Assembly: GCA_013288685.1 (NCBI GenBank)
Contig: JABDBM010000004.1
Span: forward strand, 42,502 to 106,501
DNA: 64,000 bases
Reading direction: 5' to 3'
Origin: Bacteroidota bacterium
GTDB taxonomy: Bacteria; Bacteroidota; Bacteroidia; Sphingobacteriales; Sphingobacteriaceae
The notes under the pieces were generated by a model. That model was not told the origin of the DNA. It was given only the letters and a program-made list of their open reading frames with translations, and made no database searches. This document shows, one piece after another, positions 1 to 35,211 of this stretch (position 1 is the first letter of the stretch; the number at the start of each line of letters is the position of its first letter). The position numbers were made by a program, and so were the translations under genes.

Positions 1-1417
1 AGCCTTCGCGATACTTACGTTTTACAAATTGGTTAACATCGTCAAAGTTTGTTATTTTCATGGCATTGTTATCCCATAATAACTTAATCCTGCCGCCTTT
101 AAGGTCGTGACCGCGTACAGCAAGATTAGCCATTAATAAAGCCTCGGTTAACGGACCAGCCACGTCAAACGACGAACTTAGCTCGGTATTACCATACCCC
201 GCAATACAACCCTCTACCCATTGCGCATAGTGTCCGTTAGCGCCGCCCGGAACACGCGCCCATTTTTGCGGGGCCTTTGCATCCTTAGTAAGATTGGTTG
301 GTAACAGGGTAGCCGCATCAGAATAGGTACTGGCATACATTTTACCTTTTGTACCAATAAACAGCGTACCGTTACCACCTTCTCCGCCAAAATTTTCATT
401 TGCGCCTAATTCTTCAGGACGCTCTGGCTGAATACCACCATCCATCCAATGTAAAGTAACGTCGCCTTTTGTTTTATCGGTTTTAGGGAAAGTTAATGTA
501 ATATGGCTCGACGGCGGACAGCTTTCAGGGAAATGTCCTTCTTTAAATTCATCAACGTAAACACTGCCCACGCTTGCCTGTACGTCTTTGGCATATTTTA
601 TACCCAGTACCCTGAATGGAGCTTCAACCAGGTGACAACCCATATCGCCAAGGGCGCCCGTTCCGTAATCCCACCATCCGCGCCAGTTAAACGGCACTAA
701 TTTATCTATGTAATCTTTTTTGGGAGCAGTACCTAACCACAGATCCCAGTCCAGTTCTTTCGGAATATTGGGTTGCGGTGCAGGCCAGGCAATGCCTTGT
801 GGCCAAACCGGGCGGTTTGTCCAGCAATAAACGGTATGTACATCGCCTATCAGGTCGGCATCATACCATTCAGACATTAAGCGCGTTCCATCATTTGAGG
901 CACCCTGGTTACCCATTTGGGTCACCACTTTATATTGTTTGGCTGCGGCAGTTAGTAAACGCGCTTCGGCAATATCATGGGTTAGTGGTTTTTGCACATA
1001 TACGTGTTTGCCCAGTTGCATAGCATGATAGGCCACAATAGCGTGGGTATGATCGGGCGTTGAAACTGACACAGCATCAAAATTCTTTGATTCTTTATCA
1101 AACATTTCGCGCCAGTCTTTATAGTATTTCGCCTTAGGGAACCTGCCTACGGTTTTTGCAGCACGTCTTTCGTCAACATCGCACAAATAAGCAATGTTGG
1201 CTTTGCCGCTTTTATCAAAGTTGAAAATATCGCTTTCGCCTTTGCCACCAACACCCACGCTGGCAATAGTAAGGCGGTCGCTTGGTGCAATGTAGCCTTT
1301 ACCGCCCAGCACAAAACGCGGAACGATCATGAAGCCGGCAGCGGCAACCGTACTTGTTTTTAAAAACTCCCTTCTGGAGGCGTTTGGTTTTTTATTATTA
1401 TCTTTTTCTTCGGCCAT
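1..1417 (-). CDS. Gfo/Idh/MocA family oxidoreductase, Tat-exported (partial, 3' end outside window)
   Basis: This ORF is absent from the track because it runs off the left edge. I read it from the ATG at 1417. The N-terminus carries a twin-arginine signal (SRREFLK, then a hydrophobic stretch AAAGFMIVPRFVLGG), so the enzyme is probably exported folded to the periplasm. A Rossmann-type NAD(P) domain follows (TIASVGVGGKG, then LCDVDERRA), and further on VSTPDHTHA and the family motif EKPLTHD in the variant form VQKPLTHD, which supplies the catalytic lysine. Members oxidise or reduce sugar hydroxyls or ketones. With three GMC flavoproteins and a sugar isomerase next door, a role in keto-sugar metabolism is likely; the substrate is inferred only from context. 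A 118-bp gap with a heptad array separates it from the upstream GMC gene. Confidence 0.88.
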   Translation of the reverse strand, partial: MAEEKDNNKKPNASRREFLKTSTVAAAGFMIVPRFVLGGKGYIAPSDRLTIASVGVGGKGESDIFNFDKSGKANIAYLCDVDERRAAKTVGRFPKAKYYKDWREMFDKESKNFDAVSVSTPDHTHAIVAYHAMQLGKHVYVQKPLTHDIAEARLLTAAAKQYKVVTQMGNQGASNDGTRLMSEWYDADLIGDVHTVYCWTNRPVWPQGIAWPAPQPNIPKELDWDLWLGTAPKKDYIDKLVPFNWRGWWDYGTGALGDMGCHLVEAPFRVLGIKYAKDVQASVGSVYVDEFKEGHFPESCPPSSHITLTFPKTDKTKGDVTLHWMDGGIQPERPEELGANENFGGEGGNGTLFIGTKGKMYASTYSDAATLLPTNLTKDAKAPQKWARVPGGANGHYAQWVEGCIAGYGNTELSSSFDVAGPLTEALLMANLAVRGHDLKGGRIKLLWDNNAMKITNFDDVNQFVKRKYREG

Positions 1418-1454
1418 TGTAATAGATATAATTGGTTTGTTTGAGTTTGTTCGT

Positions 1455-1530
1455 CAGTTGGCAGTTTTCAGTTGGCAGTTCGCAAGGGCGTAGCTTTTTC
1501 CTGCCGCCAACTGCAAACCGCCCACTCCAA
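1455..1530. repeat. 7-bp-period degenerate array (GTTGGCA type) with inverted return arm
   Basis: Reading 7 by 7 from about 1455 gives GTTGGCA, GTTTTCA, GTTGGCA, GTTCGCA. After about 25 bases a reverse-complement arm follows (GCCAACTGCAAACCGCC). It lies directly 3' of the minus-strand GMC gene that ends at 1536. The same unit recurs at 3251-3318. The arms could form a hairpin and act as a terminator, but there is no clean T-run. Confidence 0.7.
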
Positions 1531-1535
1531 ACTTA

Positions 1536-3218
1536 TTATATATTTCCCTTTTTCAATTCCTCAACCGCATGGTTAGCTGCCCGTGCTGTTATGGCCATAT
1601 AAGTTAATGACGGGTTTTGGCAGGCTGTTGAAGCCATACACGCCCCATCGGTAACAAATACGTTTTGGGCATCCCACACCTGGTTCCAACCATTCAACAC
1701 AGATGTTTTAGGATCGCGGCCCATACGCGCCGTGCCCATTTCATGAATGCCGCGGCCTAAATAAGGCTCGCCTTTAAAAGTGCCTACATTTTTAACACCG
1801 GCTGCTTCCAGCATTTCCTTGGCATCGTTCTCCATGTCAATACGCATTTTCTTTTCGTTGTCCTTAATTTCGGCATCGAAGGCTAAAACTGGCAGTCCCC
1901 ATTTATCCTTAACGGTTTTATCGAGCGTAATCTTATTTTCGTGATAAGGCAATGTCTCACCGAAGCCGCCTATACCCATCGTCCAGGCGCCAGGTTCGGT
2001 TAAGGCATCCTTAAATGCCCCGCCGATGTTCAGCTCGGGTATATCCCTGCCCCAGTCTTCGCGGCTTGCGCCACCCTGGTAACCAAAGCCGCGTATGTAA
2101 TCGCGCTTTTCGCCGCCGTCCAGATTTCTGAAACGCGGAATAAAAATACCGTTTGCCCTGCGGCCGAAAGTATATTTATCCTCAAAACCTTCTACCACAC
2201 CATAAGCACCTGCACCTAAGTGATGGTCCATCACATTATGACCCAGTTCGCCGCTACTGCTGCCCAAACCACCTGGCCAGATATCGGTAGCCGAATTCAT
2301 TAAAATCCAGGTACTATTAAATGTTGACGCATTGGCAAAAATGACTTTAGCAAAAAATTCGTAAGTCTGATTTGTTTCTGCATCAAGTACTTCAACTCCC
2401 TTTGCCTTTTTGGTATCCTTATCGTAAATTATTTTGGTAACTATTGACCATGGACGAACTGTTAAGTTCCCGGTAGCCGTGGCTGCCGGTAAAGTAGAAG
2501 ATTGCGTACTAAAATAAGCCCCAAACGGACATCCTAACCAGCATTTATCACGGTACTGGCAATTAGTGCGCGCATAATGTGGTTGTGTAATGTTAGCTGT
2601 ACGGCCAATAATAAAAGCACGGGTCTCTTTATAGTGCTCTTTAAAACGCTTGGCAACATCTTTTTCCACCACGTTCATATCCATAGGCGGCATAAAGTCA
2701 CCATCCGGCAGTACCGAAAGGCCGTCTTTATTGCCTGATATTCCTGCGAATTTCTCAACGTAACTGTACCAGGGAGCTAAATCATTATAACGGATGGGCC
2801 AATCAATACCTACGCCTTGTTTTAAATTCTCTTCGAAATTAAAATCGGCCCAGCGGTATGATTGTCTGCCCCACATTAATGAACGGCCGCCCACATGATA
2901 GCCCCTGAACCAGTCGAAACGTTTAACCTCAACATAAGGGCTGTCGATATCGCTGGCCCAATAATCAAGGTTAGTTTCGTTCAGCGGATAATCGCGTTTT
3001 AATTTGGGATAATCATGGATCATTTGCTGCGTACGCCCGCCCCTGTGCGGAAATTCCCAGGGATCTTTATTGGCGTTCACATAATCTTTTACGTGCTCGA
3101 TATTACGGCCACGCTCAAGCATAATAGTCTTTAACCCTTTTTCAGTTAGTTCTTTAGCAGCCCATCCGCCCGAAATCCCTGAACCGATGACAATTGCGTC
3201 ATAAGTATTTGCAGCCAT
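1536..3218 (-). CDS. GMC family oxidoreductase, glucoside 3-dehydrogenase-type large subunit (copy 1)
   Basis: This is an FAD-dependent sugar dehydrogenase of the glucose-methanol-choline family, 560 aa. The FAD-binding GSGISGG loop is at residues 12-18. The C-terminal catalytic pair is His492 (IHEMGTARMG) and Asn535 (QNPSLT), an arrangement like pyranose oxidase and glucoside 3-dehydrogenases. A cysteine motif, Cys220-x5-Cys226-x3-Cys230 (ending GCPFG), matches the placement of the iron-sulfur ligands described in the Burkholderia FAD-glucose dehydrogenase catalytic subunit; that function is inferred here. There is no signal peptide of its own, so export would depend on the Tat-bearing small subunit at 7051-7641. 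It is a tandem duplicate of 3320-4999 with most residues identical. Its exact sugar substrate cannot be read from the sequence. Confidence 0.9.
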   Translation of the reverse strand: MAANTYDAIVIGSGISGGWAAKELTEKGLKTIMLERGRNIEHVKDYVNANKDPWEFPHRGGRTQQMIHDYPKLKRDYPLNETNLDYWASDIDSPYVEVKRFDWFRGYHVGGRSLMWGRQSYRWADFNFEENLKQGVGIDWPIRYNDLAPWYSYVEKFAGISGNKDGLSVLPDGDFMPPMDMNVVEKDVAKRFKEHYKETRAFIIGRTANITQPHYARTNCQYRDKCWLGCPFGAYFSTQSSTLPAATATGNLTVRPWSIVTKIIYDKDTKKAKGVEVLDAETNQTYEFFAKVIFANASTFNSTWILMNSATDIWPGGLGSSSGELGHNVMDHHLGAGAYGVVEGFEDKYTFGRRANGIFIPRFRNLDGGEKRDYIRGFGYQGGASREDWGRDIPELNIGGAFKDALTEPGAWTMGIGGFGETLPYHENKITLDKTVKDKWGLPVLAFDAEIKDNEKKMRIDMENDAKEMLEAAGVKNVGTFKGEPYLGRGIHEMGTARMGRDPKTSVLNGWNQVWDAQNVFVTDGACMASTACQNPSLTYMAITARAANHAVEELKKGNI

Positions 3219-3250
3219 GTTTGATTTGTGTTTTATAAAAAATTATTCTA

Positions 3251-3318
3251 TTGGTTGGCAGTTTGCAGTTGCCGGTTTGCAGTTTTTTTTCGAACTGCCC
3301 ACCGCAAACTGCAAACTT
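3251..3318. repeat. 7-bp-period degenerate array (GTTTGCA type) between the tandem GMC copies
   Basis: Successive units are GTTGGCA, GTTTGCA, GTTGCCG, GTTTGCA, then a T-run and a reverse-complement arm ending GCAAACTGCAAAC. The unit is shared with the array at 1455-1530, which sits at the equivalent place after the other copy. The array may therefore have been copied with the gene. Confidence 0.72.
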
Positions 3319-3319
3319 T

Positions 3320-4999
3320 CTAAATATTACCTTTTTTCAATTCCTCAACCGCATGGTTTGCAGCGCGCGCCGTCATAGCCATATAAGTAAGCGATGGGTT
3401 TTGACAAGCTGTAGAAGCCATAGCTGCGCCATCAGTTACAAATACGTTTTGGGCGTCCCAAACCTGGTTCCAGCCGTTTAGTACTGAGGATTTTGGATCT
3501 TTACCCATACGGGCGGTTCCCATTTCGTGAATGCCACGGCCTAAAAATGGATTGGAGCTATGTGTTTTTACGTTTTTAACACCTACAGCTTCCAGCATTT
3601 CCTTAGCATCGTTCTCCATGTCAATCCGCATTTTCTTTTCGTTGTCCTTTATCTCGGCATCAAAAGCTAAAATTGGCAATCCCCATTTATCTTTCTTCGT
3701 TTTATCGAGGGTGATCTTGTTTTCGTGGTAGGGCAATGTTTCGCCAAAACCACCTATATTCATTTGCCATGTTCCAGGTTCAGTCAGCGCGTCCTTAAAG
3801 TCGCCGCCGATACTGAGTTCCGGAATATCCCGGCCCCAACTCGAACGGCTACCGCCACCCTGGTACCCAAAGCCGCGTATATAATCGCGTTTATCGCCAT
3901 TCAGGTTACGGTAGCGTGGAATGTATATACCATTTGCCCTGCGGCCGAAGATATATTTATCCTCAAAGCCTTCTACAGTACCCGATGCACCAACACCAAG
4001 ATGGTGGTCCATCACATTGTGACCCAATTCGCCACTGCTGCTGCCTAAGCCACCTGGCCAAATATCAGTGGCAGAGTTCATTAATATCCAGGTGCTGTTA
4101 AAAGTGGACGCGTTAACGAATACGATTTTAGCGAAGAACTCATAAGTTTGATTAGTTTCGGCATCCAGTACTTCAACTCCTTTTGCCTTTTTGGTATCCT
4201 TATCGTAAATAATTTTTGTTACGATTGACCATGGCCGCACGGTTAAATTGCCGGTAGCCATCGCAGCAGGCAATGTTGACGATTGTGTGCTGAAGTAAGC
4301 GCCAAACGGACAACCTAACCAGCACTTATTACGGTACTGGCAATTGGTACGCGCAAAATGCGGCACTGTAATATTAGCTGTACGGCCAATCACAAAAGCA
4401 CGGGCTTCCTTATAGTGTTCTTTAAAACGTTTGGCTACGTCTTTTTCAACCACGTTCATTTCCATAGGCGGCATAAAATCACCGTCGGGGAGGATAGAGA
4501 GCCCGTCTTTATTACCCGATATACCAGCAAATCTTTCAGCATAACCATACCATTGTTCCAAATCCTTATAGCGGATAGGCCAGTCGGTGCCGATGCCGTC
4601 TTTTGCATTGGCTTCAAAATCGATATCGGCCCAGCGGTATGATTGCCTGCCCCACATTAATGAGCGGCCACCTACGTGATACCCCCTAAACCAGTCGAAA
4701 CGTTTAATTTCTGTATACGGGCTATCCTTATCGCTTGCCCAATAATCCAGGTTGGTTTCGTTTAACGGATAATCGCGTTTAAGCACCGGATAGTCCTCGA
4801 TCATTTGTTGTGTGCGGCCTCCCCTGTGCGGAAATTCCCAGGGATCCTTGGTGGCGTTTACATAATCTTTAACGTGCTCAATATTGCGACCACGCTCCAG
4901 CATTATGGTTTTTAAGCCTTTTTCAGTTAATTCTTTAGCAGCCCAACCGCCCGAGATCCCTGAACCAATGACAATCGCGTCATAAGTATTTGCAGACAT
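3320..4999 (-). CDS. GMC family oxidoreductase, glucoside 3-dehydrogenase-type large subunit (copy 2)
   Basis: 559 aa, colinear with copy 1 and nearly identical over long stretches. It has the same FAD loop (GSGISGG), the same Cys triplet (NCQYRNKCWLGC), the same IHEMGTARMG histidine and the same QNPSLT asparagine. Differences cluster in surface-like segments around residues 125-155 and 340-400, for example YGYAERFAG against YSYVEKFAG, which could tune substrate choice. It is the first gene of this pair on the minus strand. The 334-bp region upstream (5000-5333) holds a perfect 21-bp palindrome about 135 bp before the start codon. A recent duplication followed by diversification is the simplest reading. 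Confidence 0.9.
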   Translation of the reverse strand: MSANTYDAIVIGSGISGGWAAKELTEKGLKTIMLERGRNIEHVKDYVNATKDPWEFPHRGGRTQQMIEDYPVLKRDYPLNETNLDYWASDKDSPYTEIKRFDWFRGYHVGGRSLMWGRQSYRWADIDFEANAKDGIGTDWPIRYKDLEQWYGYAERFAGISGNKDGLSILPDGDFMPPMEMNVVEKDVAKRFKEHYKEARAFVIGRTANITVPHFARTNCQYRNKCWLGCPFGAYFSTQSSTLPAAMATGNLTVRPWSIVTKIIYDKDTKKAKGVEVLDAETNQTYEFFAKIVFVNASTFNSTWILMNSATDIWPGGLGSSSGELGHNVMDHHLGVGASGTVEGFEDKYIFGRRANGIYIPRYRNLNGDKRDYIRGFGYQGGGSRSSWGRDIPELSIGGDFKDALTEPGTWQMNIGGFGETLPYHENKITLDKTKKDKWGLPILAFDAEIKDNEKKMRIDMENDAKEMLEAVGVKNVKTHSSNPFLGRGIHEMGTARMGKDPKSSVLNGWNQVWDAQNVFVTDGAAMASTACQNPSLTYMAMTARAANHAVEELKKGNI

Positions 5000-5134
5000 A
5001 TTTAAATATAATAAAGGTTAAAAAATTTATAGTATTGGTTATACTCCGACTAATGTATGAACAAAAAATTAGTGAACAAATATTTCATTGTGTTTTTTTA
5101 ACACAATAATGGGTTTGCAAAGCCACAGGGCCAA

Positions 5135-5155
5135 TTTATACAAAATTTGTATAAA
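5135..5155. promoter_or_regulatory. Perfect 10-1-10 palindrome, candidate operator
   Basis: The arms are TTTATACAAA and TTTGTATAAA around a single A. The element is AT-rich and not followed by a T-run on the minus strand, which argues against a terminator. A perfect palindrome of this length upstream of a catabolic gene suits a dimeric repressor or activator. No regulator gene lies next to it, so the protein that would bind is unknown. Confidence 0.5.
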
Positions 5156-5280
5156 CTTTTTATGCGTAATCAGCCCATTTTATTGTGTATTTGGCATTTG
5201 TTTTAACATTATTTGTATGCCCTTTTGGGGCTTTTTTAATAATTAACGGATGAGGAGTTAAGTCACTACAAGCATTTGTC

Positions 5281-5329
5281 ACGCCTCACCTAAATCCTCT
5301 CCAACGGAGAGGGGTTGGGGGTGAGGCGT
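5281..5329. repeat. CCTCACC...GGTGAGG dispersed palindromic repeat
   Basis: Outer arms ACGCCTCACC and GGTGAGGCGT enclose an inner TCCTCTCC/GGAGAGG stem. A longer relative of the same element is inserted in a coding sequence at 51656-51736. Here it lies within 5 bp of the stop codon of the GMC gene at 5334 and may double as a transcription terminator. Confidence 0.8.
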
Positions 5330-5333
5330 TAAC

Positions 5334-7046
5334 CTACACATTCCCCTTTTTTAATTCACTAACTGCATAGTCAGCCGCCCGTGCGGTTATTGCCATGTAA
5401 GTAAGCGAAGGATTTTGGCATGATGTTGATGTCATACAAGCGCCATCGGTTACAAAAACATTGTTGCAGGCATGTACCTGATTCCATTTATTCAGAATAG
5501 AGGTTTTGGGATCGTTGCCCATCCGCGCACCACCCATTTCGTGAATATCCAAACCCGGAGCCTGATGATTGGTTGATGGCTGGATGTTTTTGAACCCGGC
5601 AGAGGTAAACATTTCTGTCATCTGCTCGATATAATCCTTCTTCATCTTCTCGTCGTTATCATCATAATCAACCGATATGTTTAATAACGGCATGCCCCAA
5701 TCATCTTTCTTTTGGGCATCAAGGCTTACAAAGTTGCTTTCTTTCGGGATGGTTTCGCCCATCATGTGCGAGTTTACATACCATGGACTCAGTTCGCCTT
5801 TTACCAAACCTTCTTTAAGGCCGGCACCAACACCATCGTATTTGTGTTGCTGATAACGGTATCCGCTGAAACCTGCAGCATAACCGCGCAAAAAGTTGGT
5901 TTCCTGTTTGTAAACATTTCTGAAACGAGGAATATAACCGCCTGTTGGCGAGCGGCCATCAACTGTCCACTCTTTTAAGCCATCATATTCCGCGTTGATA
6001 TGGGCCGAATAGTTGTGGAAAGCCACATATTTTCCTAAAACGCCACTATCGTTACCAAAACCATTCGGGAACCGGTTTGATTTGGAGTTTAAGAGCAGCA
6101 GGTTGGTATTTAATGCCGCTGCATTTACAAAAATGATACGGGCGTAGTATTCAATGGTTTGCTTGGTTTGAGAATCGACAATGCGAACACCTGTTGCTTT
6201 GCCTTTTTGCTCATCGTAAATAATGGATTCAACTACCGAAAACGGCCGCAAAGTCATATTTCCCGATTTTTCGGCCCAGGGAATAGTTGAAGCATTACTA
6301 CTGAAATAGCCGCCAAACGGGCAGCCGCGCTGGCAAAGGGTGCGATTTTGGCATTGCGCCCGACCCTGCTCAAAATGTATAGGATTGGGTTTTGATAAAT
6401 GCGCGCATCGCCCGCTTATAACATGACGGTTTTGATATTTACTTTTTACGTGATTGCTAAAATAAGTTTCCACGTCATTTAGCGGATAGCCTGGTAAAAA
6501 TTCACCATCGGGTAATTCCGCAATACCATCTTTATTGCCTGCTATGCCTGCAAACTTTTCTACATAGCTATACCAGGGAGCAATATCTTTATAGCGGATG
6601 GGCCAGTCTACGGCAAAACTATCGCGGGCGGGGCCTTCAAAATCAAAATCGCTCCAGCGCTGGGTTTGCCTGGCCCAAAGTAACGACTTCCCTCCTACCT
6701 GGTAGCCGCGTATCCAATCGAACGGTTTTTGCTGTACGTAGGGATGTTCATTATCTTTTACAAAAAAATGTGCCGAATCCTCGCCAAAAGCATAGCAACG
6801 GCCCACAATCGGGTTTGCTTCCAATACTTCGGCGGGCAGCTGCCCGTGATGGTCAAATTCCCAGGGGTATTTATTAGTGGTGGGATAATCTTTTACGTGT
6901 TTTACATCGCGGCCACGCTCCAAAACCAGAGTTTTTAAGCCATTGCCAGTAAGCTCTTTTGCTGCCCAGCCGCCGCTAATGCCCGAACCGATGACAATTG
7001 CATCAAAGGTGCGCGCCTTTACGCTATCTATATTTAAGTTAGCCAT
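5334..7046 (-). CDS. GMC family oxidoreductase, divergent third paralogue
   Basis: The track begins at a TTG (7058) inside the upstream stop region. I prefer the ATG at 7046 (MANLNID), 4 bp after the stop of the small-subunit gene, giving 570 aa. It has the FAD loop GSGISGG, a Cys motif CQNRTLCQRGCPFG like that of the two paralogues, a catalytic His in IHEMGGARMG (GG where the others have GT) and Asn in QNPSLT. Sequence is far more divergent than between copies 1 and 2. Placement directly after the subunit-3 gene makes this the most likely cognate large subunit of the complex, oxidising a glucoside or disaccharide in the periplasm. The electron-accepting cytochrome is not in the window. Confidence 0.9.
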   Translation of the reverse strand: MANLNIDSVKARTFDAIVIGSGISGGWAAKELTGNGLKTLVLERGRDVKHVKDYPTTNKYPWEFDHHGQLPAEVLEANPIVGRCYAFGEDSAHFFVKDNEHPYVQQKPFDWIRGYQVGGKSLLWARQTQRWSDFDFEGPARDSFAVDWPIRYKDIAPWYSYVEKFAGIAGNKDGIAELPDGEFLPGYPLNDVETYFSNHVKSKYQNRHVISGRCAHLSKPNPIHFEQGRAQCQNRTLCQRGCPFGGYFSSNASTIPWAEKSGNMTLRPFSVVESIIYDEQKGKATGVRIVDSQTKQTIEYYARIIFVNAAALNTNLLLLNSKSNRFPNGFGNDSGVLGKYVAFHNYSAHINAEYDGLKEWTVDGRSPTGGYIPRFRNVYKQETNFLRGYAAGFSGYRYQQHKYDGVGAGLKEGLVKGELSPWYVNSHMMGETIPKESNFVSLDAQKKDDWGMPLLNISVDYDDNDEKMKKDYIEQMTEMFTSAGFKNIQPSTNHQAPGLDIHEMGGARMGNDPKTSILNKWNQVHACNNVFVTDGACMTSTSCQNPSLTYMAITARAADYAVSELKKGNV

Positions 7047-26361: not shown

Positions 26362-27603
26362 ATGAAATACAGGTTCTTACTTATTCTTTTGTTCTTTCCA
26401 TTTGGCGTATTATTTGCGCAGGGCACGCTGTCGTCTGATGACCTTTTTCAGCAGGCCCGAAAAATGGCCTTCGATAATAAAAACTACCCCGGCGCCATAG
26501 CCTTATGTAAAGAAGCACTTTCCAAAAGCCCGGATTATACCGACATACGCGTTTTTTTAGGGCGGCTTTATACCTGGTCAAAGTACACTGATAGTGCCCG
26601 CACCCAGCTTATTGAAGTTTTAACCAGGCACCCCGATAATGAAGATGGCGCCATTGCCTACGCCAGTTTAGAATACTGGAACAATAATTCGGCAAAAGCA
26701 TTGCAATTTGTACAACAAGGGTTAAAGTACCATCCGGCATCAACTGATCTGCTGCTGTTAAAAGCAAAAGTGCTTATTGATTTAAAGCGGTTTCAGGAAG
26801 CAAACCTGGCTATAGATACTCTACTAAAAGCCAATCCTAAAAATACGGATGCCCGGGCACTGGCGGACCGAATAAGCGATAACACATCTAAAAACAAGAT
26901 GAGCATCAACTATGATTTCGTTTATTTTGACAAACAATTTAATGATCCCTGGCACCTTGCAAGCGTAGATTATACCAGGCAAACGGATATAGGTTCAATA
27001 ACGGGCCGCGTAAACTTCGCCAATCGTTTTAACACCAATGGCGCCCAGCTTGAAATGGACGCGTATCCGCATCTGTCAAAAACGTTTTATGCCTATTTAA
27101 ACGCAGGCTACTCGGACAACGTAGGGGTATTTCCTAAATACCGGGCCGGATTTTCGTTATATGCCAATTTGCCGGCGAGTTTTGAAGGCGAGGCGGGCTT
27201 TAGGTTTTTGAGTTTTAGTGGCCCCACCTGGATATATACTGCATCGGTAAGTAAATATTATAAAGACTACTGGTTTAATTTCCGCACTTTCCTTACCCCC
27301 TCCAACAATAATATTTCGCAATCTTATGCGCTTAATGTTCGGTACTATTATGGGGGTGCTGACGATTATTTTAGCCTGGGGTTAGGCACTGGCATTTCAC
27401 CTGATGACCCGGGCAACAGTGTTTTATTGAATAGTGGTAACGTTTATAAGTTGCGATCAAATAACGTATCAGCAGGGTATCGCCATTCATTTAAAACCTT
27501 AAATGTGTTTTTTATAAATTTAAGTTTAGCCAACCAGGAATATCTGCCGCACACCAGGGGTAACCAGTTTGATGCCGGTGTTGGATACATCAGGCGTTTT
27601 TAA
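26362..27603 (+). CDS. TPR plus YaiO-family outer-membrane beta-barrel protein
   Basis: 413 aa. Signal peptide (FLLILLFFPFGVLFAQ), TPR repeats at about 25-180 (YPGAIALCKEALSKSPDYTD, then FQEANLAIDTLLKANPKNTD), and a YaiO-type beta-barrel from about 190 to the C-terminal phenylalanine (VGYIRRF). TPR-plus-barrel is the architecture of export channels for synthase-made polysaccharides (as in BcsC, PgaA and AlgK/AlgE). In E. coli yaiO lies beside the GT2 gene yaiP, and here a GT2 gene sits 3 kb away. A TATCTTTA element at 26316-26323 is one mismatch from a -7 box, but I see no matching -33. The gene 12 bp downstream is co-transcribed. Confidence 0.82.
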   Translation: MKYRFLLILLFFPFGVLFAQGTLSSDDLFQQARKMAFDNKNYPGAIALCKEALSKSPDYTDIRVFLGRLYTWSKYTDSARTQLIEVLTRHPDNEDGAIAYASLEYWNNNSAKALQFVQQGLKYHPASTDLLLLKAKVLIDLKRFQEANLAIDTLLKANPKNTDARALADRISDNTSKNKMSINYDFVYFDKQFNDPWHLASVDYTRQTDIGSITGRVNFANRFNTNGAQLEMDAYPHLSKTFYAYLNAGYSDNVGVFPKYRAGFSLYANLPASFEGEAGFRFLSFSGPTWIYTASVSKYYKDYWFNFRTFLTPSNNNISQSYALNVRYYYGGADDYFSLGLGTGISPDDPGNSVLLNSGNVYKLRSNNVSAGYRHSFKTLNVFFINLSLANQEYLPHTRGNQFDAGVGYIRRF

Positions 27604-27615
27604 TTTTCTTTTTTT

Positions 27616-28782
27616 ATGACCAAAAAACAATTGTTTCTGGGCGTACTGATCTTTATTGTTTTATTGCCGCTTTGGATGTGGCTGGCCTGGTTTTTTACAC
27701 CCCAAAAAAAACTGGTAGTAGCCATTATAGATAAAACCGTGCTAACCCCGCAAGGGCAGGAACATAAATCGTTAAACTGGATATTAACTAATGAACGCTA
27801 TACAAAAACACATCACAAAGGATATAAAATAAACCACGACTATTTTGGATTTTTCCCCTTACCTGACGAAAAATTTAAAATAAAAGGATTAGAACGATTT
27901 TCGGTAGCGCAACTACAGCAATTGAGTGCAGATGCCGATATGGTTTATGTTACCGATACTTACGGCATTTACAAAAACGAATGGTACAGCGGCAAGGGCA
28001 GTACAGAACGTTCGGGCATAGTATATGGTGGAATGAGCGATAACGACGTAACCTTACTCGACGATATGAAAGCGAAACACAAGCTAATTGTGACTGAGTT
28101 TAACAGCATAGGATCGCCCACTACCCTAGAAGTGAGGGGTCGGTTTGAACGTTTGTTTGCTATGCATTGGAGCGGTTGGACAGCAAGATATTTCGATAGT
28201 TTTGATACCCTTAAAAATAAAGAATTACCCAAATGGCTTATCAGGAGTTACAAAAGGGAGCATGATAATAAATGGCCGTTTCATAAATCGGGGATAGCAT
28301 TTGTGAGCGATGATGACCGGGTTGCCGTATTGGAGGACAGCACCCATTTGACCGACCCCGTACCACATATATTAACCCTGGCTTACGGCCAGGAAAAATT
28401 AGGACTTCCTGAAAAAATGAAATATCCCTTTTGGTTTGATATTATTATTCCAGACAAGGTGGTTAACCAGGTGGTTTCCACCTTTGACATTAGCGCAAAC
28501 GCTAATGGCGTAGCCGAATTAAAAAAATATGGTATCCCCTTAACTTTCCCTGCCGTATTGATGCATCGTGGGGCGGACTATCAATTTTATTATTTTTCGG
28601 GAGATTTTTGTGATAATCCCATTACTACAATAACCTCCTATTTTAAAGGCATCCATTATTTTAAATGGCTATTTTACAACGAGGATGATCCTATTGAACG
28701 CAACAGCTTTTTCTGGAAATTCTATCAGCCATTAATGAAGAATATTCTGAATGATGACGTGAATAGGCTATCGAAAAAATAA
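27616..28782 (+). CDS. Membrane-anchored periplasmic protein of a polysaccharide locus, function unknown
   Basis: 388 aa. One N-terminal transmembrane helix (LFLGVLIFIVLLPLWMWLAWFF) then a periplasmic region. Residues 35-230 have the alternating strand/helix pattern of a Rossmann- or amidotransferase-like fold (VVAIIDKTVL, ADMVYVTDTYGIY, KHKLIVTEFNSIG), without a recognisable catalytic triad. Residues 60-75 (HKGYKINHDYFGFFP) look conserved in style. It follows the YaiO gene by 12 bp. In synthase-dependent systems this position often holds a periplasmic scaffold or a modifying enzyme. I do not recognise the family. Confidence 0.6.
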   Translation: MTKKQLFLGVLIFIVLLPLWMWLAWFFTPQKKLVVAIIDKTVLTPQGQEHKSLNWILTNERYTKTHHKGYKINHDYFGFFPLPDEKFKIKGLERFSVAQLQQLSADADMVYVTDTYGIYKNEWYSGKGSTERSGIVYGGMSDNDVTLLDDMKAKHKLIVTEFNSIGSPTTLEVRGRFERLFAMHWSGWTARYFDSFDTLKNKELPKWLIRSYKREHDNKWPFHKSGIAFVSDDDRVAVLEDSTHLTDPVPHILTLAYGQEKLGLPEKMKYPFWFDIIIPDKVVNQVVSTFDISANANGVAELKKYGIPLTFPAVLMHRGADYQFYYFSGDFCDNPITTITSYFKGIHYFKWLFYNEDDPIERNSFFWKFYQPLMKNILNDDVNRLSKK

Positions 28783-28896: not shown

Positions 28897-30945
28897 TTAT
28901 TTTTTGGGCGCATAATGCCGGCTAATGCTATCCGGGATGATTTTTGCGCCGTTTATTACCAGGTTATTACGCTTTTTAAACGCCTCAAAAGCATTTTGTA
29001 ACTGATTAAGCTTATTGTCGTCCTGTACCGGTTCCTCGCCTAAGTCGGATGACAGTTTAAATAGACTTGTACCGTTTAAATGATACTCCCCCATAATAAA
29101 ATCAATCATGTCGGTTTTAGTTTGCATCAGTGGGTATTGATGCAGGTTTTGAAAGTTAACGCTGGTATCTAAGCCCTGCCCCATCCAGCTTACCAATGAC
29201 GGCCCTTTAATTTTAAAATTAGTTTTCAAATAAGCCACCAAGCTTGGGCTGATGTCAAAATGAGTGGATATGGAAGACAGCTGAGCAGTTCGCTTTAGCA
29301 TTGGCGAGTAAATAATCAGCGGTACATGATAGCGATCTATCTTATCACTCATGGGTATTTCGGGCATACGGTGGTCGCCGGTAATTAAAAACATGGTGTT
29401 GGCGTAATCGCTTCTTTTACGGTAAGCCGCAAAAAAATCTCGCATGGCATCATCCAAATACAAAATACTGGCGTATTGATTTTGGTAACTGCGGTACTTG
29501 CTTTTCTTTGCGCCATCAAACCCTAATTTTACCATTCGCTGCTCAAACCGTTGCAGGTAGGCGGTTTCTTCATTTATTATAAAGGGATCGTGAGTGGCAA
29601 CGGTTAATATCACACTTAACTGCGGCGCAGATGGCTGGTTACCGGTACTTCTGGTTGTTAAATAATGACGGAATAATTCTTTATCATTATACCCCCAGGT
29701 AAACCCATTAGTTGCAGGTAATTTAGTATAACCTGCCGGGAACGATTTTTCATCATTCAGTTCATCAACCTGGTTTTTCCGCAAAAACACATCCATATTA
29801 TCAAAGTGCGAATCGCCCCCATAATAAAACGAAGTATGATAACCGTTATACTTTAATAAACTCATCAACGACAAATGTGCAGGCATCTGTTCGCCGAGTT
29901 CCAGGAACCCATTTTTAGCAAAAGGTAATGAGCCCAACAATGATGGCAGCACGGCAAAGGTGCGACCGCCTTCGCTTAAAAAATTGCGCCAGTATAAACT
30001 CTGGTTAGATAATGAATCGATAAAGGGCGTGAAATTACCCAGGTACGCGCCTTCATTGGTGAAAGCCCGACCCAGGCCTTCAACCAACACAATTACGATA
30101 TTGGGCGGTGTGGCTGTTGCTTTAAAAAATGGTGATAATACATCCTTGCTGCTATCGGTATGCAAAAATGGGAAGTTACCGGCATCAACGTAATTATAAG
30201 CCGCGATGCTTTGCTGTCCGCCGTAATCGCCAATATAGCTATCGGCATAAATGTCTACCTCATCTTCGTCCGGGAAAAAGTGATTTAGTGTAGAACTATA
30301 AAAGAAATCAGATTTATTGACCACTAAGCTGTTGGCAAAATCCGAATGAAGATTACCATGCGTAATCATTTTTGATGTACTGGTAACATACAGCAATAAC
30401 GACAGCGCCGGCAAAACCACAGCAGCGCCGAAACCTAACTTAATTTTGCCTGGAAGCCATTTAAGTACTGTAATAATACAGGCGATGCATACTACAAACC
30501 CTAAAACCATTATCACGCTTACCCCGCCCGATGCCCCTATGGTTTGTTTAATATCCGCTATTGAATATCCATACAGGTCGGCGCCTAATGGTAACAGGGC
30601 CTTGCTAAAATATAGGATAAGACTTATATGTATAACCACCAGCACCGCAATAAATACTTTGTAAAGTATTTTTGCCAGCAACGGGCGAAACAAGAATACC
30701 GGGATGTAAACCAGGTATATGATAAATAAATAATTAAGTAAAAAGAGTGTATCTGCCAGAAACGACCAAAATATGATTCCAGCTATATTGGGGGGAAACT
30801 CATGAATTTTTCCGTTATAAACTATCTCGAAAATGCTTAATACAAACAGCATTAAAAGCCATAACAGCGATAAAACCGAAAAGGAAATGGTTGCTGCTTT
30901 TATTTTGCCAACTATGGGCTGCGTTTTCAGATCCTCAAGCTTCAT
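28897..30945 (-). CDS. LTA-synthase-like sulfatase-fold phosphotransferase
   Basis: 682 aa. About five N-terminal transmembrane helices (residues 15-215) precede an extracytoplasmic alkaline-phosphatase-fold domain from about 265. Motifs are PNIVIVLVEGLGRAF (metal Glu), GGRTFAVLPSLLGSLP (candidate nucleophile Thr), FYYGGDSHFDN and ITGDHRMPE (metal Asp-His). The family includes lipoteichoic acid synthases and phosphoglycerol or phosphoethanolamine transferases. A Gram-negative Bacteroidete does not make lipoteichoic acid, so transfer of a phosphoglycerol-like group onto an envelope glycan or exopolysaccharide is more likely. Last gene of the four-gene operon, 6 bp after the GT2 gene. Confidence 0.85.
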   Translation of the reverse strand: MKLEDLKTQPIVGKIKAATISFSVLSLLWLLMLFVLSIFEIVYNGKIHEFPPNIAGIIFWSFLADTLFLLNYLFIIYLVYIPVFLFRPLLAKILYKVFIAVLVVIHISLILYFSKALLPLGADLYGYSIADIKQTIGASGGVSVIMVLGFVVCIACIITVLKWLPGKIKLGFGAAVVLPALSLLLYVTSTSKMITHGNLHSDFANSLVVNKSDFFYSSTLNHFFPDEDEVDIYADSYIGDYGGQQSIAAYNYVDAGNFPFLHTDSSKDVLSPFFKATATPPNIVIVLVEGLGRAFTNEGAYLGNFTPFIDSLSNQSLYWRNFLSEGGRTFAVLPSLLGSLPFAKNGFLELGEQMPAHLSLMSLLKYNGYHTSFYYGGDSHFDNMDVFLRKNQVDELNDEKSFPAGYTKLPATNGFTWGYNDKELFRHYLTTRSTGNQPSAPQLSVILTVATHDPFIINEETAYLQRFEQRMVKLGFDGAKKSKYRSYQNQYASILYLDDAMRDFFAAYRKRSDYANTMFLITGDHRMPEIPMSDKIDRYHVPLIIYSPMLKRTAQLSSISTHFDISPSLVAYLKTNFKIKGPSLVSWMGQGLDTSVNFQNLHQYPLMQTKTDMIDFIMGEYHLNGTSLFKLSSDLGEEPVQDDNKLNQLQNAFEAFKKRNNLVINGAKIIPDSISRHYAPKK

Positions 30946-30951
30946 AGTGAA

Positions 30952-32379
30952 TTATTTTTTTTTCGGTGATGACAAGCCCTGGCGGGTCATTTCGCCCCAT
31001 GCGTTCTTTTTCCGTAATAAATCAATATTGCCTTTTATAGCCGACCATACCACAAAAGGGTGAAAAATAAAAGGCTCTAAAAATGCAGTTAACATTAAGT
31101 TAGCAATATCTTTTTGCTGCTTGTATTGATGGTAAGTTAATACCTCCATTAAGACGGCAAAAATTGAATACAAAAACCCAAAGCAAAATACAAAAGCTAA
31201 CAGGATAAAAAAGAAACTCCAGTTTATTAATCCAAATATCCCGAAAATGATGAATACCGACATGCCAACAAATTCAACAATGGGGGCTAAAAATTCAAAA
31301 AAGAACCAATAGGGATAACTGATCATACCCAGCAAGCCATAGCTTGGGTTAAAGAACATAATTTTATGAAAACGCAATGTTTCAATGGTTCCGCGCGTCC
31401 ATCGGTTGCGCTGCCGGCCCAGTATTTTAAATGAAGCGGGAGCCTCCGTCCAGCATAGCGGATCGGGAATAAAAGCCACCTTATAGGGTTGTTTTAATTC
31501 TTCCATATAACGGCGCATCCTCACCACCAGCTCCATATCTTCACCTACAGTTTTATGGTTATAGCCGCCGCATTTTATTACAATTTCCTTATCAAAGGCC
31601 CCAAACGCACCCGATATAAGCAGCAAACCGTTTAGTCGGCTCCAGGCCATACGTCCCAGTAAAAAGGCACGTATGTATTCAAGTGTTTGTACACGCGGTA
31701 AAAACTGTTCGGGTAAGTGTACCTTTATCAGCCTTCCGTTTTCAATTTCGCAGCCGTTGGCAATGCGTATTACGCCGCCGGTTGCAATTACCCTATGATT
31801 TGGGTATTCCAAAAACGGTTTGGCCAATTTCAATAACGCGTCCTGCTCTAAAACACAATCCACATCAATGCATACAATATAATCGTTTTTGGCAATGTTA
31901 ACACCCACATTCAGGGCATCTGCTTTACCCCCGTTTTCTTTATCAACTACAATTAGTTTTCGGTACACGTGGTTACGGCTTTTATAAACGCCACGCACTT
32001 TTTTTGTGTGAATTTGCTGATTTACAAAAAAGTCGATTTTGTACAGGTCATAAGCGGCAATTAATTTTTCTAATGAATCGTCCTTACTGCCATCGTTCAG
32101 GATAATTACCTCCATATTATTATAATAAATGGAAAGCAGCGACCTTACGTTCTCAATTATATTTGCGCCTTCGTTATAGGCCGGCGCCAAAATACTCATG
32201 CTGGGCGTTTGTGTTGAACCAGCTAATATCCGGTAATCAGTAAAACTATTTTTATGCAGGTAATTATTTACGGCGCCACTGGAGTATATCCCAATAAAAA
32301 TATAGCACGACATTAACGTAACAGAATAAGCCAGTATAGCATAAGTAAAAAAATCAAATACAAAGGTTTGCCAACTCAT
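30952..32379 (-). CDS. Processive GT2 glycosyltransferase (PgaC/hyaluronan-synthase-like)
   Basis: 475 aa. An N-terminal transmembrane helix (FFTYAILAYSVTLMSCYIFIG), then a GT-A domain with ILNDGSKDDSL, VCIDVDCVLEQDALL (DxD), TVGEDMELVVRMRRYMEE (catalytic Asp after ED) and QRNRW, the QxxRW signature of processive synthases. Three or so C-terminal helices follow (FEFLAPIVEFVGMSVFIIFGIFG...). This layout makes and extrudes a linear polysaccharide across the inner membrane. It overlaps the HEAT gene by 4 bp. Neighbours supply an outer-membrane channel, a periplasmic protein and a head-group transferase. The sugar polymerised cannot be read from sequence. Confidence 0.9.
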   Translation of the reverse strand: MSWQTFVFDFFTYAILAYSVTLMSCYIFIGIYSSGAVNNYLHKNSFTDYRILAGSTQTPSMSILAPAYNEGANIIENVRSLLSIYYNNMEVIILNDGSKDDSLEKLIAAYDLYKIDFFVNQQIHTKKVRGVYKSRNHVYRKLIVVDKENGGKADALNVGVNIAKNDYIVCIDVDCVLEQDALLKLAKPFLEYPNHRVIATGGVIRIANGCEIENGRLIKVHLPEQFLPRVQTLEYIRAFLLGRMAWSRLNGLLLISGAFGAFDKEIVIKCGGYNHKTVGEDMELVVRMRRYMEELKQPYKVAFIPDPLCWTEAPASFKILGRQRNRWTRGTIETLRFHKIMFFNPSYGLLGMISYPYWFFFEFLAPIVEFVGMSVFIIFGIFGLINWSFFFILLAFVFCFGFLYSIFAVLMEVLTYHQYKQQKDIANLMLTAFLEPFIFHPFVVWSAIKGNIDLLRKKNAWGEMTRQGLSSPKKK

Positions 32380-33437
32380 ATAGCCAATTCGTTTTTAACC
32401 TGCGCAATTATTTCAATAAACGGATATTGCAACGCTTGTTTGTGGTTCATTAAACTTTCAAGTCCTTTGGCGCTAATATTTGCAAGTGCGCGGGCGGCAA
32501 ATAGTTTTATTTCTACATTTTCATGATCAAGCTGCTGTAGTAAAAAAGGAATATCATCATCAGTAGCAATATTTTGTAATACCTTAATAATGGCCAACTG
32601 ATGTTTGGGATGGGCGCTTAAAAACTGGCCAATTAACAGGCGGGAAGTTTCGGCAGTGTATATTTCGCCCAGGCTTATTATCGCCTGTAACTTCACTTGC
32701 TTATCGGCATCTGCCAGGCATCCCACCACACTATCGTGCAGCTCAAAACGATGATAGCCCCTAACTAACTTTAAGGCAAAAACAACCACCGTTTTATTCG
32801 GGGATTTAAGCCATTTCTCAATCCCCTTAAAATTATCGGGCGAGATACGTAACAGTTCCTGTAATAATTTAATTTGCTGCCATTCCGTAATAGGGTACGA
32901 TACCACATCTAAAAAGCGCAGGCCTTCAAAGCCATAAAAATTAACAATAGCAATCTGCGCCTCCATGCGCACCAGCTCGTTGGCGTTATTGGTAAACCTG
33001 TAAATTTTGGTTAAATATTCTTTAAGGCCCATAACAGATAATTCTTGTATGGCTTGTGCTTTTAAGTACCAACGGCGATTTTTAAGGCCGGCGAGGGCAT
33101 ATTGATTAAGGTTAAGCTGCAGGTACAGTTGTTTAATATTTTCGGCGGCACTGCCGCTTACATTCTTTTTGGCTTTTAACAGTTCGTTTGTTAAAAATTT
33201 CCGGAAGGGAGTTTGTTTTAATGATTGCTGCACCCGGAGAGTAACCGGTATATCATCCTCTATCTCTTCAAAAAATATAGCTTTCCTTATTAACAAATTA
33301 GCCATAACCGTCCATTTTTGTTGCTTTTTAGTACTCTTATTTCTTAAATACATATAAATAAGTATAAAAGCAATGAGCGATAAAGCAACTAAAATGAAAA
33401 AAAAGATAGCCAGAATAAAATAGTAAGGCCTAATCAT
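32376..33437 (-). CDS. Membrane-anchored HEAT-repeat protein
   Basis: 353 aa. A single N-terminal transmembrane helix (FILAIFFFILVALSLIAFILIYMYL) and a cytoplasmic array of HEAT-like helical pairs from about 100 to 345 (VRMEAQIAIVNFYGFEGLRFL; DKQVKLQAIISLGEIYTAETSRLL; NVEIKLFAARALANISAKGLE). It sits between the response regulator (18 bp gap) and the GT2 synthase (ATGA overlap), so it probably scaffolds or gates the synthase in response to the regulator. There is no enzyme motif. This gene order (REC, HEAT, GT2) is the most unusual part of the locus. Confidence 0.8.
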   Translation of the reverse strand: MIRPYYFILAIFFFILVALSLIAFILIYMYLRNKSTKKQQKWTVMANLLIRKAIFFEEIEDDIPVTLRVQQSLKQTPFRKFLTNELLKAKKNVSGSAAENIKQLYLQLNLNQYALAGLKNRRWYLKAQAIQELSVMGLKEYLTKIYRFTNNANELVRMEAQIAIVNFYGFEGLRFLDVVSYPITEWQQIKLLQELLRISPDNFKGIEKWLKSPNKTVVVFALKLVRGYHRFELHDSVVGCLADADKQVKLQAIISLGEIYTAETSRLLIGQFLSAHPKHQLAIIKVLQNIATDDDIPFLLQQLDHENVEIKLFAARALANISAKGLESLMNHKQALQYPFIEIIAQVKNELAI

Positions 33438-33455: not shown

Positions 33456-33830
33456 TTAAGCATGCACGGCGTGGGCAAAACCGAAACGTCTGACCCGTAC
33501 AGTGAGTTCATTTGGACTAAACGGCTTCGTAATATAATCATCGGCGCCTAATTGAAAAGCTTCCAGCACCACATCTTCCTGGTACATTCCCGAAAGTATA
33601 ATTATCGGAATCCGGTTCACATAATTTTGTCGTACAGCGCTTATAATTTCTAATCCCGATGAGTAGGGCATCATAATATCGGTAATCACCAGGTCGGGGC
33701 TGTGTATCGCTATTTGTTCTAAAGCCTCTTTACCATCGTGTGTCACAATCACTTCATGTCCGTCTCTTTTCAAACGAAATTCTAAAGTTTTAAGCATTAA
33801 ATCATCATCTTCCGCTACTAAAATCCTCAT
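33456..33830 (-). CDS. Stand-alone response regulator (REC only)
   Basis: 124 aa, a single receiver domain. Acidic pocket EDD at residues 7-9, phosphoacceptor Asp in VITDIMMP (about residue 53), switch Ser/Thr in IIILSG and Lys in ITKPFSPNEL are all present, so it should be phosphorylatable. There is no output domain, so it must act by protein contact, presumably on the HEAT protein or synthase encoded immediately downstream. The divergent gene encodes a kinase-like protein with a broken core, so the true phosphodonor is not evident in the window. Confidence 0.88.
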   Translation of the reverse strand: MRILVAEDDDLMLKTLEFRLKRDGHEVIVTHDGKEALEQIAIHSPDLVITDIMMPYSSGLEIISAVRQNYVNRIPIIILSGMYQEDVVLEAFQLGADDYITKPFSPNELTVRVRRFGFAHAVHA

Positions 33831-33878
33831 AACTCTTTATACTAAATAACACAACAAAAAGTTGTTAAGTAAAACGTA

Positions 33879-33886
33879 TATTTTTG
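33879..33886 (+). promoter_or_regulatory. -7 promoter element for the GAF/kinase-like gene
   Basis: TATTTTTG is a perfect TAnnTTTG match, about 120 bp before the ATG at 34009. It places transcription start downstream of the TTG used by the ORF track at 33862, which argues against that start. No well-spaced TTG lies at -33. Confidence 0.4.
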
Positions 33887-34008
33887 CGCAATGTGGTAAT
33901 ATCCCGCTAATTATAAAGCTACTATTAAATCTATTAAAATGCTATATTTACTTCAAAAAAGTTTATTTGCGGCATCATTGCTGCCTGCAATTGTCATTGA
34001 TTAAATAC

Positions 34009-35211
34009 ATGTTAAACAACAAGCCACCGGTACCAAAACATGAGTCGGATAGAATTTTAGAACTATCTAAACTCGATTTGGATTATTCAACACTCGAAGA
34101 TAATTTCAAGTACCTCACCAGGTTAGCCGCAAAAATAACCGGAAAGCCCATTGCTTTAATTAATCTGATTGATTCCTTTACCCAATGGACCATTTCAAAT
34201 CATGGGTTTCCTTTAAAATCAATGCCCCGCGAGGATTCTGTTTGTCAATATACAATTGCCGGTGATCACAACTATTTCGAGGTTAAGAACTTGTTACAGG
34301 ATGAACGATTTAAGGATAAGCCCTATGTTAGCCCGCCCGATGGCTTGCGGTATTATATGGGGGTTCCATTAAAAAGTGAAGACGGCAACTCTATTGGCGC
34401 CTTATGTGTTGTTGACATGCAGGTAAGTGAACTTAGCGCTGAACAAATAGATTTTTTAGAAATTATTGCTGATGAAATAGTTAACAGGCTGTACGAATTA
34501 AAACGTACGCACCAATTATTTAACAAGTTTACCGCAGCGCAGGAAGAGCATAAAACATTGGCGCGCAATATACGCGAGCCCTTAGCCGGTATAATTGGCA
34601 TTTTACAGGTAATAATAGAAGATGCCGGCAATACCAAAATTGACGGCGAGGTTTTACAATATATTAAACTGATAGAGAAAAGCAGTAATTCGATATTAAA
34701 CCTTACGGACGCTGTATTAGATACCGACGAAGAAAGGCACCTGAATAAAGACCAAGGCGATTTAATATGGCTAAAAACTACCATCGAAACGCTTTACATG
34801 CCCCTGTGCCTGCAAAAAAACATCGGCTTTAAAATAAACGTTTCAACCCGGACGGAACGAATACCTTTTTCAAAAAACAAGCTCGTGCAGATAACCGGTA
34901 ATTTAATAACCTACGCTATCCGGAGTATTCCTGATTTTGAAAACATAACGCTTGACTTAATTTTAAAAGTTGAAGCGAGCCAAAATGTTCTTTGTATAAA
35001 TTTATCGTTTTTGGATAGCGGAACGGACATCATCAATAAAGTATTTGATAAAACCGGGCTTTCCGCTTCCGAACAAAAAAACACCGGCGTTCAGGCTTTG
35101 GTACTTGTTCAAAAAATGATTGAGAGCTTAAATGGCCAAATAGAAACCAGTATTATGCCGGGAACAAAAAGAGTATTTAACATCATAATTCCACAAAATC
35201 AGCCGAAATAA
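34009..35211 (+). CDS. GAF-domain histidine-kinase-like protein with degenerate catalytic core (pseudokinase)
   Basis: The track starts at TTG 33862. I prefer ATG 34009 (MLNNKPPVPK), giving 400 aa. A GAF domain spans about 20-160 (TGKPIALINLIDSF, then YYMGVPLKSEDGNSIGALCVVD). The kinase region follows family spacing but has lost key residues. Where the H-box His is expected the sequence reads LARNIREPLAG (Arg). The N-box reads GNLITYAIRSI (the Mg-binding Asn is Tyr). The G1 box reads DSGTDI and the G2 box NTGVQALVL. Autophosphorylation and ATP binding are therefore unlikely. Divergent from the REC gene, it may sense a small molecule and bind the regulator without phosphorylating it. Confidence 0.75.
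   Translation: MLNNKPPVPKHESDRILELSKLDLDYSTLEDNFKYLTRLAAKITGKPIALINLIDSFTQWTISNHGFPLKSMPREDSVCQYTIAGDHNYFEVKNLLQDERFKDKPYVSPPDGLRYYMGVPLKSEDGNSIGALCVVDMQVSELSAEQIDFLEIIADEIVNRLYELKRTHQLFNKFTAAQEEHKTLARNIREPLAGIIGILQVIIEDAGNTKIDGEVLQYIKLIEKSSNSILNLTDAVLDTDEERHLNKDQGDLIWLKTTIETLYMPLCLQKNIGFKINVSTRTERIPFSKNKLVQITGNLITYAIRSIPDFENITLDLILKVEASQNVLCINLSFLDSGTDIINKVFDKTGLSASEQKNTGVQALVLVQKMIESLNGQIETSIMPGTKRVFNIIIPQNQPK

Follow-up and report, generated by a model that had tools for sequence, protein, structure and literature searches.

The gene at positions 34009–35211 (forward strand) of the window, the whole 64,000-nucleotide stretch of DNA that we analysed, is judged from its sequence to be a retained pseudo-histidine kinase: it combines kinase homology with the loss of catalytic residues, and it has been kept by selection across species (eight loci in three genera, with omega far below 1 in a trio of close relatives). 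We think it rather more probable than not that this protein evolved from the kinase of an exopolysaccharide locus, and that it would now gate the polysaccharide machinery by docking to a neighbouring response regulator (REC), instead of by catalysis.

The 400 codons of the gene are free of stops, as compared with about 27 stops in the shuffled gene, and the start codon is backed by an MLNN start that is conserved in the nearest relative. The histidine-kinase layout proposed in the original prediction is borne out by Pfam: a GAF domain (aa 29–159; 34093–34485), the best conserved part of the protein, scores 3e-8, above its cut-off, and matches to HisKA (2e-5) and HATPase_c (7e-4) fall below theirs. 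The remainder of the protein is a degenerate DHp region, of the type that dimerises and docks REC (aa about 166–250; 34504–34758), and a degenerate CA, or ATP-binding, domain (aa 251–400; 34759–35208). Every motif quoted in the prediction is present, and each could be aligned with about 60 full-length, intact relatives from the same, apparently Mucilaginibacter-like genus (mostly 42–49% identical to the window protein). LARNIREPLAG pairs with VAHDIRGPLGG, which places Arg186 (34564–34566) at the phospho-acceptor His position and Glu190 (34576–34578) at H+4, the HisKA phosphatase residue (PMC3510030); NLITYA pairs with NLISNA, the N-box Asn being replaced by Tyr302 (34912–34914); DSGTDI (35014–35031), the G1-box remnant, pairs with DTGVG; and the NTGVQAL stretch (35080–35100) falls opposite the G2 region, GYGFGLAL, with four residues missing. 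The features of an active HisKA histidine kinase are therefore missing: there is no H-box His, and the N, G1 and G2 boxes are lost. A PDB search with the window protein returned only general GAF and kinase relatives, a search of genome contigs for homologues yielded only one distant match, from Omnitrophota, and a single-sequence structure model (pLDDT 37) was unusable.

The best match within the genus, from genome G150 (51% identity), has lost the same motifs (Ala for His, Tyr for Asn, no G1 or G2 box) and lies in a syntenic locus: its pseudokinase gene is divergent from REC, which is followed by genes for HEAT, GT2, sulfatase, unknown and YaiO proteins. It follows that the loss is not specific to one strain. 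A family-level homologue search followed by locus inspection added six further pseudokinases, each an open frame of 381–391 codons. Eight are thus known from three genera: those of the window (genome G000) and G150; G572, G619, G632, G628 and G609, from one other genus; and G599, from another. All eight are divergently adjacent to the REC gene of a locus of the REC-HEAT-GT2-(sulfatase)-YaiO type. The prediction had proposed alignment with close homologues as a check on whether the losses are conserved, and at the ATP site they are: the N-, G1- and G2-boxes are lost in 8/8 of these syntenic proteins, and none of the six that were tested reaches the Pfam cut-off for HATPase_c, whereas four intact relatives score 66–81 bits. 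Since the same ATP-site motifs are gone in seven further syntenic homologues, and the window frame stays open where shuffling creates stops, we do not attribute the combination of motif loss and open frame to chance. The phospho-acceptor position is more varied: Arg in the window protein, Ala in G150, Gln in G572 and Asn in G599, with His kept in G619, G632, G628 and G609.

It had also been proposed that homologues with an intact H-box would indicate recent or strain-specific decay. Such homologues do exist, namely the 60 or so described above, but the conclusion drawn from them does not hold: the intact genus kinases that were examined are orphans elsewhere in the chromosome (among 19 flanks, none lies in this locus and none has a conserved response regulator alongside), and the losses are common to three genera. 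Strain-specific decay was ruled out as an explanation, given losses common to several genera and close relatives that are under selection.

That selection is best seen away from the window itself. When the window gene is compared with its G150 counterpart, the tests on GAF, DHp and CA all reject omega = 1, but they are weak because dS is saturated; for this reason we estimated omega from G619, G632 and G628 (dS about 0.5–2.3). The joint values are 0.055 for GAF, 0.015 for DHp and 0.141 for CA, and single-pair tests reject omega = 1 in each domain. Intact paralogues from the same three genomes give 0.042, 0.039 and 0.065, respectively; CA evolves faster in the pseudokinases than in intact kinases. 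Furthermore, when we consider columns that are near-invariant in 60 intact kinases, the two pseudokinases of the window's genus both keep 54 of 62 in GAF, 14 of 34 in DHp and 13 of 51 in CA. From the omega values and column counts we conclude that the GAF sensor and, in the close trio, DHp have been held while the ATP site has been released. A gene decaying towards loss would also show a fast-evolving CA, and would be missing from some loci, as this one is from G141 (see below) and most loci of the genus; we nevertheless regard such decay as very improbable in view of the open frames, the strong purifying selection on all domains of close relatives, and retention across three genera. A GAF ligand sensor with an output other than REC, for example the synthase or the HEAT protein through direct contact, would fit the observations that no domain is better conserved than GAF in the window/G150 pair and that the gene's linkage extends to the locus as a whole. 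We find this improbable as well, if less so: in the close trio it is DHp, the REC-docking domain, that is the most constrained, and the slot always adjoins REC.

Another key observation concerns what else occupies this genomic slot. Intact kinases are found in exactly the position of the pseudokinase in G719, G799 and G649 (a fourth genus, g26), and at the opposite end of the locus in G717, G793, G751, G769, G705 and G753 (g26) and G564 (g202); these placements, in three and seven genomes respectively, tie the kinase lineage to this REC. Other loci have either a slot without a kinase or a hybrid kinase within the operon. With the dead form next to REC in eight loci of three genera, intact kinases in the same slot of related loci, and purifying selection on every domain in close relatives, the central proposal of the original prediction, a catalytically dead kinase beside a live REC, is supported. 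As that prediction also suggested, the pair may signal by binding and control the glycan locus.

Most REC-HEAT-GT2 loci in the window's own genus contain no pseudokinase; in the one that is closest to the window's (G141), REC is present and the pseudokinase absent. We conclude that REC can work without it. The slot in G141 (L144, 9588–10577) holds an open reading frame that by eye resembles an RlmF-like rRNA methyltransferase, and this locus is missing both the sulfatase and the unknown gene of the 27616–28782 type. Two other genus loci (L155, 8551–9108; L159, 9922–10563) have a PAS + HisKA protein (YKNSHLLRSPVA) upstream of REC that stops after DHp and has no ATPase domain; its domain content predicts that it could be another REC partner unable to autophosphorylate. 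In G012 and G008 the gene upstream of REC encodes a protein of this PAS-DHp type, lacking an ATPase domain (Pfam was run on the latter).

In the best tree all eight pseudokinases group together as a single clade (bootstrap/SH-aLRT 95/87; 98/93 without CA columns), which is placed next to intact kinases linked to exopolysaccharide (EPS) loci, inside a 16-row clade (97/93; 95/94 without CA columns). A single origin is thus the best-tree result, although alternative topologies survive AU tests (p = 0.087, 0.116 and 0.308), which reject neither two origins nor placement with the orphan kinases. Descent from the genus orphans is not the origin favoured by the best tree once EPS-linked kinases are added, and again AU does not reject it. 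The common slot, while not a test of the tree, argues for one origin. The pseudokinase appears to descend from the kinase that belonged to this locus.

The rest of the locus lies on the other side of a 178-bp divergent intergenic region (33831–34008), around which a promoter scan detected nothing above shuffles. The adjoining gene, read in the opposite direction (33456–33830, reverse strand), encodes a single-domain response regulator that satisfies the description of a receiver domain: the acidic residues (EDDD), the phospho-accepting D(IMMP), S(G) and K(PF) are all present, as the prediction had stated, and the divergent orientation is confirmed. These phosphorylation residues are retained in the pseudokinase loci. 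Also on the reverse strand are genes for a HEAT-repeat protein whose N-terminal segment is hydrophobic, by eye a probable membrane anchor (32376–33437), a GT2 glycosyltransferase (30952–32379) and a sulfatase-fold enzyme that resembles LtaS and phosphoglycerol transferases but scores below the cut-offs for those families (28897–30945). PgaC/IcaA is the nearest named family to the GT2 enzyme, which reaches 129 bits against a cut-off of 422 for NCBIfam TIGR03937; it belongs to the same superfamily as this synthase and is not a member of the family. On the forward strand lie genes for a conserved locus protein that matches no family in Pfam or NCBIfam (27616–28782), which adjoins YaiO in most loci, and for a TPR + YaiO outer-membrane beta-barrel protein (26362–27603). 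A single long open frame comprises both GT2 and the sulfatase-type enzyme in L239 (8862–12401), L242 (8658–12200), L191 (12142–15786) and L163 (9176–12865); such frames occur in several genera, which suggests that the two enzymes act together. A second REC-HEAT-GT2-sulfatase locus in the window's genome (L149, contig C176 of G000, 818–5661) belongs to another clade of the locus tree and has no pseudokinase in the 817 bp of upstream sequence covered.

Exopolysaccharide systems of the PgaC/IcaA and NfrA/NfrB types also feature a GT2 synthase, which here is accompanied by a TPR/outer-membrane-barrel protein; the E. coli N4-receptor system is reported to be controlled by c-di-GMP (PMC8669469, PMC8669472). 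The window locus differs in that control appears to be exerted via REC and the HEAT protein, and in the addition of the LtaS-like enzyme.

What might a dead kinase do for a live REC? The residue at H+4 is instructive. It is Gly in 35 of 36 sampled intact kinases (Arg in the other) and in none of the eight pseudokinases, which have Asn (four), Asp (G150, G572 and G609) or Glu (the window). One intact genus kinase, L045, carries Arg in place of Gly (VAHDIRRPLAG). In HisKA proteins, Thr or Asn at H+4 is required for phosphatase activity; in CrdS the acidic neighbour is dispensable, the H+4 Asn is the sole residue that is strictly required, and loss of the His merely lowers activity (PMC3510030). 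The appearance of Asn in four pseudokinases, when neither Asn nor Thr occurs there in any of the 36 intact relatives, therefore raises the idea of a signal-gated REC~P phosphatase that has lost kinase activity and has gained or kept this second role. The four Asn-bearing proteins may indeed be phosphatases. As an account of the pseudokinase, we consider it unlikely, though the strongest competitor: the window protein has Glu, three others have Asp, and the N375D mutant of CrdS has no significant phosphatase activity (PMC3510030). For the window protein, with Glu190, we predict no autokinase, phosphotransfer or phosphatase activity; as the Asn/Thr that a phosphatase requires is absent too, this member most likely works by binding alone.

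A further proposal is that the pseudokinase is a regulatory subunit, which would pair with an active paralogous kinase as a heterodimer and direct it towards or away from REC. Intact paralogues are carried by G619, G632, G628 and G572, and in the first three of these genomes they are only 5–7 kb away. There is also a precedent: in ChrS-fs, a laboratory-evolved Corynebacterium pseudokinase with a frameshift in CA, a CA-dead kinase retains a regulatory effect and is proposed to act in this way with its paralogue, HrrS (PMC9491836). That case differs in being one laboratory mutation and not a conserved family, with a paralogue as partner. On the other hand, no intact close paralogue is present in G150 (99% complete) or G609 (100%), and none was found in the window genome (only 71% complete), so that no close intact kinase was found in these three genomes as a source of REC phosphorylation. 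The proposal is, in our estimation, marginally more doubtful than that of a phosphatase.

The reading that we prefer, then, is that the dead kinase probably acts by binding and not by catalysis, and that its most likely role is to bind REC under the control of GAF. The DHp dimer would still form and dock REC; sensing of a cytoplasmic ligand by GAF would alter the docking; and the pseudokinase would thereby sequester, shield or position REC, which would itself receive its phosphoryl group from a different kinase or from a small phosphodonor. REC output would run via HEAT to the PgaC-like synthase and the LtaS-like enzyme, so that the HEAT-GT2-sulfatase-YaiO polysaccharide machine is gated through protein contacts.

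The nearest characterised parallel is DivL of Caulobacter, a proven case of a kinase core converted into a REC binder: it shows neither kinase nor phosphatase activity, and DivK~P is bound by its kinase core (PMC4211667). In common are a HisKA-type core that lacks the phospho-acceptor His, a response-regulator partner and, here by inference, action through binding. Yet DivL has PAS sensors and, where the His would be, Tyr (the family also allows Ala), and apart from this retains its H, N, G1, F and G2 boxes (PMC4211667), whereas the window protein has Arg, a destroyed ATP site, a GAF sensor and a gene in a polysaccharide locus; it is not a DivL member, and the homology is compared at the level of the kinase fold only. 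By analogy, we would describe it as a DivL-like principle in a new family. Closer in sequence are the intact GAF-HisKA-HATPase kinases of the same bacterial family (e.g., L229 and L002), with full-length homology and the same length and domain order; unlike the window protein, these keep every catalytic motif.

Few bacterial pseudo-histidine kinases have been characterised: our literature search yielded mainly DivL and the laboratory-evolved ChrS, and among open-licence papers there was no description of this pseudokinase family or of the REC-HEAT-GT2 locus. We offer, as a tentative generalisation that we hold with somewhat less than even confidence, that this is a natural family in which a REC's kinase turned into a phosphorylation-independent, GAF-gated switch of that REC, which would drive a polysaccharide synthase via a HEAT adaptor; the order of losses would be visible (ATP binding first, the phospho-acceptor His later and more than once), and some members would perhaps be dedicated phosphatases. 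The locus would probably represent an exopolysaccharide system under the control of a HEAT protein and a stand-alone REC. One genomic slot beside the same REC is shared by active kinases, half-dead members in which the His survives, and fully dead members; with all stages in that slot, both the step from kinase to pseudokinase and the role of the dead form are directly testable.
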